A stretch of 23,410 nucleotides of DNA from a virus: positions 1-23,410 of the IMG/VR virus record IMGVR_UViG_3300025151_000312, one strand, 5' to 3'. This document shows positions 9,518 to 20,974 of the stretch, piece after piece. The position numbers were made by a program, and so were the translations under genes. The notes under the pieces are model-generated. The model searched no databases, was not told the DNA's origin, and saw only the letters and a program-made list of their open reading frames with translations. Position 1 is the stretch's first letter; each line of letters begins with the position of its first letter.

Positions 9518-9841
9518 ATGCAATCACTGGACAGTATATCTCTAGATCTTACTAATGCTTTAGTACCACTAATAGCAATATTCCTTAGTTTAGGGCTTGG
9601 TTTTTTTATTAAGGATCTAATAACAAACTTTATTACTGGTATTAGATTTAAATTTGATGGTAGTTTTAATGAGGGTGACAAATGTATCGTAGATGGAGAT
9701 CGGGCCGTACTAGTTAAAGTAGGTATATACGAGAGTGTATTTGCTATAACTAATGGTCGAGGCCATGTATGGAGATATGTACCTAATGAGAGAATTAAGT
9801 TTCTCAAGATAGAAAAGATAATAGAGGAGCCTAAAGAATGA
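9518..9841 (+). CDS. MscS-like mini mechanosensitive channel domain protein
   Basis: The protein has 107 aa from the ATG at 9518, which has a GGAG nine bases upstream; an in-frame ATG at 9503 has a poor site. Residues 12-32 are one hydrophobic helix, followed by KDLITNFITGI. That matches the end of the MscS pore helix and its N-x3-G motif. The MscS beta domain then follows in order: F50-x2-G53-D54, V68-G69, and the VPN segment at 88-90. The protein therefore keeps only the pore helix and beta domain, where E. coli MscS has 286 aa. Its stop overlaps the holin-like start (ATGA). A role in late membrane permeability or turgor is inferred. Similarity to MscS was judged by eye. Confidence 0.72.
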   Translation: MQSLDSISLDLTNALVPLIAIFLSLGLGFFIKDLITNFITGIRFKFDGSFNEGDKCIVDGDRAVLVKVGIYESVFAITNGRGHVWRYVPNERIKFLKIEKIIEEPKE

Positions 9842-10299
9842 TTACTATACTAGGATCATTAATTGGATTTGCTGGATCAGCTTTACCTAAAGTGTTCGAC
9901 ATGGTTAATGATTGGCAAGATCGTAAGCATGAGTTAGCTATGATGGACAGACAACTAGAAGCATCTAAGCTACAACACGTTCAGAAGATTGAAGCACTAA
10001 ATATAGAAGCTGATATCAGTGAGACTAAGGCAATATACAAACACGATCAGTCATTAAAGACTACAGGATTTATGTCTGCTCTAAGAGCATCAGTTAGACC
10101 AGTTATAACATATCTATTTTTTACTTTATTTGCAGTAATAAAAGGTACAGCTATGTACGGTTTAATCTATACAGATGGAGTTGTGTGGGAAATGGCTATA
10201 CAAACACTGTGGGATGAAGAAACTCAAGGAATATTTGCTGCTATTATTTCATTCTGGTTTGGAAGTAGAGCCTTACAAAGATCTAGGAGCAGTTCGTAA
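9838..10299 (+). CDS. Holin-like protein (three-TM family)
   Basis: This 153 aa protein overlaps the preceding stop by four bases. It has an N-terminal hydrophobic, glycine-rich segment (residues 1-20), then a long charged helix (30-70), then two hydrophobic helices (about 90-111 and 131-146), ending in a basic Ser/Arg tail. This layout and the RASVRPVITYLFFTLFAV core match the three-TM holins of gene transfer agents and many alphaproteobacterial phages. A holin makes the inner membrane permeable so that the lysozyme about 800 bases downstream can reach peptidoglycan. The assignment rests on topology and motif memory. Confidence 0.75.
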   Translation: MITILGSLIGFAGSALPKVFDMVNDWQDRKHELAMMDRQLEASKLQHVQKIEALNIEADISETKAIYKHDQSLKTTGFMSALRASVRPVITYLFFTLFAVIKGTAMYGLIYTDGVVWEMAIQTLWDEETQGIFAAIISFWFGSRALQRSRSSS

Positions 10300-10577
10300 T
10301 GGCAATCAAAAAAGGTAAGGAAACATTCTCTGGTTATAATAAACCCAAGAGAACACCAAGTCATCCTAAGAAATCTCATGCCGTACTAGCTAAAGAAGGT
10401 ACTAAGGTAAAGCTAATACGGTTTGGTCAGCAAGGAGTTAAAACTGCTGGTAAACCTAAGAAGGGAGAATCGTCAAGACAAACAGCTAGAAGAAAATCAT
10501 TTAAAGCTAGACATGGCAAGAACATAGCCAAGGGTAAAATGTCAGCAGCGTATTGGGCTAACAAAGTAAAATGGTAA
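10299..10577 (+). CDS. Small basic conserved phage protein
   Basis: This 92 aa protein overlaps the holin-like stop (TAATG). It is very basic, with Lys/Arg spread throughout. It contains KVKLIRFGQQGVKTAGKP and a C-terminal ARRKSFKARHGKNIAKGK...SAAYWANKVKW segment that I recall as common in small unassigned marine phage proteins. The ARH...K...YW pattern may be a small structural domain. There is no membrane segment. DNA binding or virion association is plausible from charge, but the function is unknown. Confidence 0.8.
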   Translation: MAIKKGKETFSGYNKPKRTPSHPKKSHAVLAKEGTKVKLIRFGQQGVKTAGKPKKGESSRQTARRKSFKARHGKNIAKGKMSAAYWANKVKW

Positions 10578-10608
10578 TATGGGATACTATAAATATTATT
10601 ATATGCAA

Positions 10609-10614
10609 AGGAGG
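10609..10614 (+). promoter_or_regulatory. Perfect Shine-Dalgarno AGGAGG selecting a GTG start
   Basis: AGGAGG ends six bases before the GTG at 10621. It is far stronger than anything in front of the upstream in-frame ATGs at 10579 and 10603, so it decides the start of the following gene. Confidence 0.75.
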
Positions 10615-10620
10615 TATTTA

Positions 10621-10788
10621 GTGAATAAGCCTAAATTTGATTCTACAGGATCATTAATAAAAGATGAAGGTGAAAAAGTATTGATTGAAGATAACTGGAT
10701 TAAAGTAAAACCAGTAGATAAAGAGAAGTTAAATAGTTTGCAAGACAGATATCTAAAAAATAAAGAGTTCTGGAGAAACAGACAATGA
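10621..10788 (+). CDS. Hypothetical 55 aa protein
   Basis: The GTG start at 10621 is chosen because of the AGGAGG six bases upstream. The product is about 55 aa, mixed charge and soluble, with an ENWIK-like central strand region (EDNWIKVKPVDKEKL) and a helical basic C-terminus. If translation began at 10579 instead, it would gain a Tyr-rich 14-residue extension. Its stop overlaps the next ATG (ATGA at 10785). It belongs to a run of very small genes between the holin-like and lysozyme genes. No family is recognised. Confidence 0.68.
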   Translation: MNKPKFDSTGSLIKDEGEKVLIEDNWIKVKPVDKEKLNSLQDRYLKNKEFWRNRQ

Positions 10789-10946
10789 TCAGTGGAAAAG
10801 TATTTTATGGGGGAGCTAATAATATCATGGTAAATAAAACAGAAGAAGATAATAATACTAATAAGCAATGCAGTTGTGACAGTTGTATTGAGTGTAACTG
10901 TGATCCAAAGGTTTGCAGATGTGGTTGTCATAAAGAGGAGGAATAG
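10785..10946 (+). CDS. Cys-rich metallothionein-like miniprotein
   Basis: An open frame of 53 aa begins at the ATGA overlap at 10785; an internal ATG at 10827 behind GGGGGAG (10809-10815) would give 39 aa. Eight cysteines and one His lie within 21 residues (29-49 in the long form). Their spacing is C-x-C-x2-C-x2-C-x-C-x4-C-x-C-x-C-H, flanked by Asn/Glu-rich and Glu-rich ends. Dense CxC and CxxC pairs in a tiny protein are the hallmark of metallothioneins and other metal-cluster miniproteins. Zinc, copper or cadmium binding is inferred. It lies in the late cassette, tightly spaced with its neighbours, so it is probably made late. Confidence 0.72.
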   Translation: MISGKVFYGGANNIMVNKTEEDNNTNKQCSCDSCIECNCDPKVCRCGCHKEEE

Positions 10947-10949
10947 ATA

Positions 10950-11126
10950 ATGAAAGGTGTAAAACATTACTTTAAAAATGGTAAAGAGTATAAGGGTGGT
11001 ACACACAAGATGCCTAATGGGTCTACTCATAGTGGTAAAACACATACTAAGACTAGTAAACCAGTAGTTCATTTTAAAGATTTATCTAAAACTGTACAGG
11101 CTAGAATAAAGAAAACTAAAAAATGA
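10950..11126 (+). CDS. Small basic His/Lys/Thr-rich protein
   Basis: A 58 aa protein starts at an ATG four bases after the previous stop; GAGGAGGA within the end of the previous gene serves as its ribosome binding site. It is basic and rich in Lys, His, Gly and Thr (MPNGSTHSGKTHTKTSKPV), with a helical KDLSKTVQARIKK end. I recall similar THKMP-G..H.G.THT sequences among small marine phage proteins of unknown role. Its stop overlaps the lysozyme start (ATGA at 11123), indicating coupling to the lysis enzyme. Confidence 0.72.
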   Translation: MKGVKHYFKNGKEYKGGTHKMPNGSTHSGKTHTKTSKPVVHFKDLSKTVQARIKKTKK

Positions 11127-11572
11127 GAAATATGACTGATGAGGGTCTTGACCTGATTAAGTTGTACGAGGGGTATAGTTCATCCCCTTATCTGTGTCCT
11201 GCCCAACATTGGACAATCGGATATGGGGCTATCTGGGGTTTAGATGGTAAAAGAGTAACAGAAGATCATCCTGATATAAATAAAGATCAAGCTGACCAAT
11301 TACTAAGAAGAGATGTAAGGAAGTCACAAGTAGCAGTATTACGACTAATAAAAGTACCTTTAGAGGATGGACAGTTTGATTCGCTATGTTCATTCGTATT
11401 TAATTTAGGTAGTGGTTCTCTACAAAGCAGTACTCTAAGACGCAAAATAAATAGGGGAGATTATATTGGTGCAGCAGATGAATTTCCACGTTGGGTATTT
11501 GCAGGGGGAAGAAAGTTAAAAGGATTAATAAAGCGAAGAAATCAGGAGCGATTAATGTTTATAGGAGGATAA
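11123..11572 (+). CDS. GH24 lysozyme (endolysin)
   Basis: This 149 aa phage-type lysozyme should cleave the MurNAc-GlcNAc bond of peptidoglycan at the end of infection. The catalytic glutamate is E16 (KLYEGY), followed by the CPAQHWTIGYG active-site strand with T31. The residue six before T31, Asp20 in T4 lysozyme, is C25 here. That is typical of the CPAG.WTIGYG branch of GH24, and T4 D20C is known to stay active. The conserved C-terminal DGQFDSLCSFVFNLG helix and the final WVFAGGRKLKGLIKRRNQE segment are present. There is no clear signal or SAR sequence, so release probably needs the upstream holin-like protein. Confidence 0.92.
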   Translation: MRNMTDEGLDLIKLYEGYSSSPYLCPAQHWTIGYGAIWGLDGKRVTEDHPDINKDQADQLLRRDVRKSQVAVLRLIKVPLEDGQFDSLCSFVFNLGSGSLQSSTLRRKINRGDYIGAADEFPRWVFAGGRKLKGLIKRRNQERLMFIGG

Positions 11573-11573
11573 C

Positions 11574-11765
11574 TTGGCAGCAAAGAAAAAATCTAAAAGT
11601 AAGGTAAATGAAGCAGGTAACTATACAAAACCTGCACTAAGAAAGAGAATATTTAGTCGTATTAAGGCAGGTAGTAAAGGCGGTGCTAGTGGACAATGGT
11701 CAGCAAGAAAAGCTCAAATGTTAGCATCTGCTTATAAAAAAGCAGGAGGAGGGTATAGAGGATAA
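11574..11765 (+). CDS. Small basic Gly/Lys-rich protein (TTG start)
   Basis: A 63 aa protein starts at TTG 11574 with AGGAGG eight bases upstream. It has a Lys-rich head, RKRIFSRIKAGSKGG in the middle and a C-terminal GQWSARKAQMLASAYKKAGGGY motif. From memory this motif is widespread in short proteins of marine phages and some bacteria. It probably folds as a small helical domain binding nucleic acid, but no function is established here. Its stop overlaps the next start. Confidence 0.8.
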   Translation: MAAKKKSKSKVNEAGNYTKPALRKRIFSRIKAGSKGGASGQWSARKAQMLASAYKKAGGGYRG

Positions 11766-12019
11766 TGGCCCTAAAGAAATCTCAAAGAAGTCTTAAAAAC
11801 TGGACTAGACAGAAGTGGAGAACCAAATCAGGTAAACCATCTACCCAAGGACCAAAGGCTACTGGAGAAAGATACTTACCTTCAGCAGCTATAAAATCTA
11901 TGAGTTCTGCTGAGTATGCTGCTACTACTAGGAAGAAGAGAAGAGATACCAAGAAAGGTAAGCAATTTTCCAAACAACCCAAAAGAATTGCTAAAAAGAC
12001 TAAAAATTATAGACGTTAG
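11765..12019 (+). CDS. Small basic conserved protein, last gene of the rightward unit
   Basis: This is an 84 aa, strongly basic protein. It carries SLKNWTRQKWRTKSGKPS..., GERYLPSAAI and a Lys-rich tail. The WTRQKWRTKSGKPS and ERYLP elements are, in my recollection, a conserved family of unknown function that often pairs with the GQWSARKAQ type gene just upstream. No catalytic residues stand out. It ends eight bases before the convergent terminator hairpin. Confidence 0.82.
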   Translation: MALKKSQRSLKNWTRQKWRTKSGKPSTQGPKATGERYLPSAAIKSMSSAEYAATTRKKRRDTKKGKQFSKQPKRIAKKTKNYRR

Positions 12020-20566: not shown

Positions 20567-20974
20567 TCACTTATAAAATATATGATCACCTATTTGTCTT
20601 ACTCTTATCTTATACTTTGCCCACCAAGGGTTTACCTTTGTGCTATGGTAGTACATAGATCCTTTTACCACATCTTTCAGTCCATGTAAAGTCTTTTCTG
20701 CAACATCTACTGAATTTAAATATGCAGTCATATCTTTAGGTCTGTCACTTAATCCATCACAGTACCAACTGAACTGGCATCTATGTCTAATAGGATAATT
20801 AATAGACCATGAGTATGTTGGGCCTTGCATTACCACTTCACAGATACTGTTAGGATATTTTTTACTCTTTACTCTTTCCATTACCACTTGAGCTACAGCT
20901 ACCTGACCTTCTATCGGTTGATCTCTAGCTTCATGATATATATTAAGTGCTAAACAAGCTAATCCTTCAAGCAT
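20567..20974 (-). CDS. SleB-type cell wall hydrolase
   Basis: This 135 aa enzyme starts behind a perfect AGGAGG. The fold of Hydrolase_2/SleB lytic enzymes is clear: NIYHEARDQP with the likely catalytic E15, QVAVAQVVMERVK, CQFSWYCDG around residues 66-74, and YYH...NPWW near 108-118. Family members cleave peptidoglycan or cortex glycan strands. There is no signal peptide. Its place among replication genes, away from the GH24 lysozyme, is notable. It may be a second endolysin, a virion-borne hydrolase or a helper for lysis. It is expressed from its own promoter region at 21017-21045. Confidence 0.88.
   Translation of the reverse strand: MLEGLACLALNIYHEARDQPIEGQVAVAQVVMERVKSKKYPNSICEVVMQGPTYSWSINYPIRHRCQFSWYCDGLSDRPKDMTAYLNSVDVAEKTLHGLKDVVKGSMYYHSTKVNPWWAKYKIRVRQIGDHIFYK

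Follow-up and report, generated by a model that had tools for sequence, protein, structure and literature searches.

A cysteine-rich, metallothionein-like protein family of marine phages with putative metal binding, paired in some lineages with an Fe-S carrier gene

Phages are known to carry auxiliary genes for carbon, sulfur, phosphorus and Fe-S metabolism; my search of the literature, confined to open-access papers, turned up none describing a phage metallothionein. Described proteins that invite comparison with the one reported here are the bacterial metallothioneins of the SmtA/BmtA family (PF02069), such as Synechococcus SmtA and Pseudomonas PflQ2MT, the latter with a Zn3Cys9His cluster (PMC7387436), the animal and plant metallothioneins, whose domains bind several metals, and the ferredoxin-type or Fe-S carrier proteins. 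The Fe-S auxiliary genes iscU and erpA have already been reported in HMO-2011-type viral genomes (PMC9038755), in a paper where a search for the words 'cysteine' and 'metal' finds no mention of a Cys-rich gene.

The stretch of DNA analysed here (the window; 23,410 nucleotides of IMG/VR record IMGVR_UViG_3300025151_000312) is part of the genome of a marine podophage of the HMO-2011 type. Its DNA polymerase is nearest to those of Roseobacter phages CRP-212, CRP-3 and CRP-235, Puniceispirillum phage HMO-2011 and Pelagibacter phage HTVC033P, at ~37-42% identity, and contains a Cys-rich insert of the kind labelled a DnaJ CXXCXGXG domain in the HMO-2011 record. The late gene block contains a gene for a 53-aa Cys-rich protein, flanked by a 69-aa and a 58-aa gene and situated just before a GH24 lysozyme (Table 1). 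Translation of 10785-10946 (+) gives MISGKVFYGGANNIMVNKTEEDNNTNKQCSCDSCIECNCDPKVCRCGCHKEEE, followed by the stop codon; the protein contains four CxC pairs and ends in CSCDSCIECNCDPKVCRCGCH plus four residues. The original prediction of eight Cys and one His within 21 residues, in CxC and CxxC spacing, was borne out by this translation (10869-10931), and the ATGA by which the ORF start overlaps the upstream stop is indeed present at 10785-10788; the downstream gap, given as four bases, is three (10947-10949), with the next ATG at 10950. The 58-aa gene product has no PHROG and no significant Pfam match. Three small Lys-rich proteins (window 10299-10577, 11574-11765 and 11765-12019; PHROGs without assigned function) flank the slot of the Cys gene and are kept across otherwise diverged backbones. 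Elsewhere in the window, a 135-aa ORF on the minus strand (20567-20974) that adjoins the DNA polymerase in the replication block has, by eye, the look of a SleB/CwlJ-type cell-wall hydrolase.

Table 1. Coordinates of the features discussed (window positions unless a contig is named).
Feature	Position	Strand	Evidence or remark
53-aa Cys-rich protein gene	10785..10946	+	translation; homologues on many viral contigs; purifying selection
N-terminal segment MISGKVFYGG, conserved, lineage-specific	10785..10814	+	synonymous variation only
Putative metal-thiolate Cys/His module CSCDSCIECNCDPKVCRCGCH	10869..10931	+	conserved core in alignments; densest Cys stretch of the window
Upstream 69-aa gene (MGYYKYYY...EFWRNRQ)	10579..10788	+	homologue in a related backbone holds an inserted Cys module
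Downstream 58-aa gene	10950..11126	+	homologues at the same place in close relatives
GH24 phage lysozyme (endolysin)	11123..11572	+	PF00959 E=1.3e-41; PHROG endolysin
Phage hesB, A-type Fe-S carrier	L071:8071-8394		PF01521 E=1.3e-15; GGGCSGF and SQCGCG present
PF01883 Fe-S assembly protein	L172:4714-5007	-	replication block; contig also has hesB and the Cys gene

The ORF is genuine. Across 53 distinct DNA versions of a 19-codon core, both TGT and TGC are used at Cys codons and pS is 0.85 against a pN of 0.106, with synonymous sites near saturation, so that coding is well supported. No other stretch in any of the six frames matches this density of eight Cys per 21 residues, the next best having six, and a chance run of cysteines is ruled out. 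Of the two candidate starts, that of the 53-aa rather than the 39-aa product is favoured because the codons of the N-terminal segment show only synonymous changes in the ten sequences compared. The window protein has aromatics, F7 and Y8, outside the core, and by eye its sequence contains no apparent signal peptide or transmembrane segment.

Like SmtA/BmtA, the phage protein is small, with clustered cysteines, CxC pairs and His as a likely ligand, and it is presumed to share their cytosolic metal-thiolate chemistry. However, its cysteines are laid out differently, the window member has eight where the PflQ2MT cluster has nine (PMC7387436), and the family has been found only in phages. No sign of the SmtA/BmtA zinc-finger fold was seen in the AlphaFold2 model (34 aligned sequences), but that model is of low confidence, with a mean pLDDT of 58 and no confident fold. 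Membership of PF02069 is rejected since the model does not match: a search of the window record gave nothing at E<=10 while controls were detected, and none of 17 family members matched. With animal and plant metallothioneins it shares Cys density, modularity and a Cys domain free of aromatics, and a counterpart of their multi-metal domains is putative; searches of Pfam and the PDB revealed no homology to a metallothionein. More broadly, Pfam, NCBIfam, PHROGs, PADLOC and PDB sequences yielded no credible match. The protein nevertheless has the general features of metallothioneins, being very small, with CxC/CxxC-clustered cysteines, conserved Cys and His and a core without aromatics. Judged by its sequence, it represents a new metallothionein-like family of marine phages, for which metal binding is putative.

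Relatives of the Cys protein were found on roughly 90 uncultured viral contigs spanning several genome backbones. A single protein query returned 24, and alignment queries 78 and then 80 kept of 93. In the 78 loci and the window together, the core occurs in 53 distinct versions as DNA and 29 as protein; all loci collected hold 51 protein cores in 96 DNA contexts, which are not equivalent to contigs. The consensus core is CDSC[IVT]EC[NG]C[DN]PxVC[RK]CxCH. Five Cys and the His never vary among 94 cores of 19 residues, and the third Cys is present in 92 and the last in 90; as parts of the motif served to seed the searches, this conservation is in part selected for. At position 8 G or N predominates, position 12 is free to vary, and not one of the 1786 positions is aromatic. 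The variants CDACIECGCDHDVCHCECH, CGSCDECNCNPEDCECSCH and CDDCIKDNCEVQTCECSCH, found via neighbouring genes, keep all or most of the Cys layout.

The family was found only in phages in the data searched. Neither phage isolates nor plasmids nor a first scan of bacterial genomes yielded the Cys gene, and a profile run over 11 HMO-2011-type genomes, without a positive control, gave none. A relaxed DNA pattern applied to viral contigs picked up further members of this family along with unrelated noise; no group among them was clearly new. Bacterial genomes gave nothing convincing: in a second scan, L113 proved to be a phage-like contig inside a Halobacteriovorax MAG, its match also being carried by an IMG/VR record, and L114 a chance frame antisense to a 610-aa ORF.

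Taking HMO-2011 as the yardstick, the family spans at least three backbones. In one the terminase is ~80% identical to that of HMO-2011 and the Cys gene sits between gp63- and gp59-like genes, a slot in which HMO-2011 itself holds gp60-62, including a methanesulfonate monooxygenase. Another, with a terminase ~46-51% identical, has a fusion form, and the window lineage is the third; L083, L113 and L133 are more distant phages with the Cys gene. Its prevalence depends on clade: among relatives of the 153-aa gene of the window (9838-10299), 24 of 27 close ones carry the core and none of 53 distant ones does. Sampling by a gp58-like gene found it in 13 of 15 contigs at 85% identity or above (one non-carrier has only 27 bases upstream) and in one of 65 at lower identity, there in a reduced form with hesB also present.

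The protein is modular. Relatives have 7, 8, 9, 11 or 12 Cys according to module, some being the core alone and others adding an extra CxCx6CxC arm (MTCECGEEPVCMC...). One backbone encodes a fusion in which the Cys module interrupts a homologue of the 69-aa upstream protein; aligned by BLASTP with the L072 fusion protein, the 69-aa protein of the window gives E=4e-18 and leaves the Cys segment in an alignment gap. In L035 (3912-4199) the start of the 69-aa gene runs in frame into the Cys protein, another case of small-protein pieces shuffled at this site, and in L033 (4333-7812) a 1159-aa ORF occupies the same variable slot, with the 92-aa Lys-rich gene on one side and the 69-aa gene on the other. 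The original prediction had staked its case on homologues keeping the cysteines and the frame, and the great majority keep both. The exceptions belong to the window lineage: L022 (3161-3370), L023 (6001-6210) and L024 (3617-3826), in two distinct sequence versions, have a reduced motif, MTCECG...CECEPEVS, an in-frame TAG and then CGCH, and the stop may reflect decay or read-through.

The Cys gene of many relatives abuts a HesB/IscA-like A-type carrier gene or has one close by. The L071 protein matches PF01521 and has the three conserved Cys of such carriers; there the Cys gene comes first and hesB second, with a 17-base overlap, and in L172 and L179 the order is reversed. L172 has, in addition, a PF01883 Fe-S assembly gene nearby, and L179 contains the same ORF. 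Starting from hesB, a strict scan found the core on 22 of 26 contigs; L202 and L203 carry a reduced Cys form, L204 has no Cys ORF within the available sequence, and in L207 the hesB is distant (44% identical). With L207 excluded and reduced forms included, 24 of 25 phage-hesB contigs have a Cys ORF, and among contigs sampled through the 153-aa gene, 11 of 24 with the core have hesB versus one of 56 without it. These contigs are related by descent, and the counts describe linkage rather than providing a strict test. The window fragment has no hesB, 11 isolates have none above the family cut-off, and most Cys-bearing contigs, the window included, have none in the available sequence. This neighbour and the reported erpA (PMC9038755) are probably genes of one kind; the pairing of hesB with the Cys gene, in differing gene orders, is new in the present analysis.

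What, then, does the Cys protein do? On balance I consider it somewhat probable that it is a phage-encoded cytosolic metallothionein-like protein that buffers Zn(II)/Cu(I) and possibly shields Fe-S assembly. Several observations support a metallothionein-like reading: Cys and His are near-invariant despite saturated synonymous change, the core combines zero aromatics with several CxC pairs, variants reached via neighbour genes mostly keep the Cys layout, and hesB linkage (24/25) persists while gene order varies between lineages. A Cys number that varies from 7 to 12 by module is expected of a metal buffer and not of a protein with one fixed cofactor. Against it, neither a metallothionein model nor a solved structure gives a match, AlphaFold2 yields no confident fold, and L022-L024 have a stop inside their reduced motif. 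The metal-binding, metallothionein-like reading of the original prediction is partly supported, by composition, Cys/His conservation and modular Cys number, but not as membership of PF02069. The main rival, an iron-sulfur or iron-binding miniprotein that works alongside the phage HesB and PF01883 proteins as a small carrier or acceptor, I consider rather unlikely. It would explain the adjacent A-type carrier in several lineages and the PF01883 protein in L172/L179, the core opens with a ferredoxin-like CxxCxxC, and Fe-S genes are known auxiliary genes of HMO-2011-type phages (PMC9038755). However, the 2[4Fe-4S] ferredoxin motif CxxCxxCxxxCP is absent, the core instead reading CxxCxxCxCxP, with the fourth Cys after one residue and Pro two residues beyond. 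The core likewise lacks a ferredoxin's hydrophobic core, having no aromatics and few hydrophobics to shield a cluster. Variable Cys number, the absence of an IscU-type scaffold from 40 Cys-bearing or hesB-bearing records and the many Cys-bearing contigs with no visible hesB all tell further against this rival.

Two other explanations fare worse. That the module is a structural zinc-binding domain folding or tethering another phage protein, for example of the virion or lysis apparatus, would suit its fusion inside the 69-aa-protein homologue and its late-block position near lysozyme. It seems improbable for a protein that is usually short and free-standing and whose Cys number and flanks vary freely, and HMO-2011-type isolates build virions with no counterpart detected (in the profile search, run without a positive control). 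The related idea, made in the original prediction, that the protein protects the lysing cell or virion found no support; lysozyme is nearby in many backbones, and nothing else ties the Cys gene to lysis. A disulfide-rich peptide active outside the cytosol would account for the high Cys density alone and is very improbable, given that no signal peptide or transmembrane segment is seen by eye, the Cys number is often odd (7, 9, 11), the terminal CH is invariant in cores, and closely packed CxC pairs fit metal thiolates better than disulfide scaffolds.

To return to the metallothionein-like protein, d10 metals are the expected partners of a cytosolic peptide in which 8-9 thiolate and imidazole ligands are clustered. 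With 7-8 Cys and one His as its ~8-9 ligands, the core would hold two or three thiophilic ions, either Zn(II) or Cu(I)/Cd(II), and the CxCx6CxC arm of longer relatives could take up one more. During infection the protein may act as a metal buffer or store, stopping free Zn/Cu from mis-metallating thiol-rich targets, and in several lineages the likely beneficiary would be the phage's own adjacent A-type carrier. Zinc overload in E. coli lowers or blocks IscA iron binding and ferredoxin cluster binding (PMC6495748), so a thiolate buffer beside such a carrier would make sense. Shielding of Fe-S assembly cannot be the sole role, since most Cys-bearing contigs have no visible hesB. The fuller proposal, of a phage-specific metallothionein family that in some lineages forms with hesB a metal-management module, buffering Zn/Cu and keeping Fe-S assembly working, is possible and, I think, somewhat doubtful.

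The auxiliary-gene slot occupied in one HMO-2011-like backbone and the Fe-S carrier neighbour in several lineages point to intracellular metal management. A Cys protein beside an Fe-S cluster gene in some phages suggests that metals are managed inside infected cells; if it binds metal, an abundant marine phage group would directly manipulate the Zn or Cu pools of the cells it infects, and the pairing with hesB would provide a testable reason for doing so.
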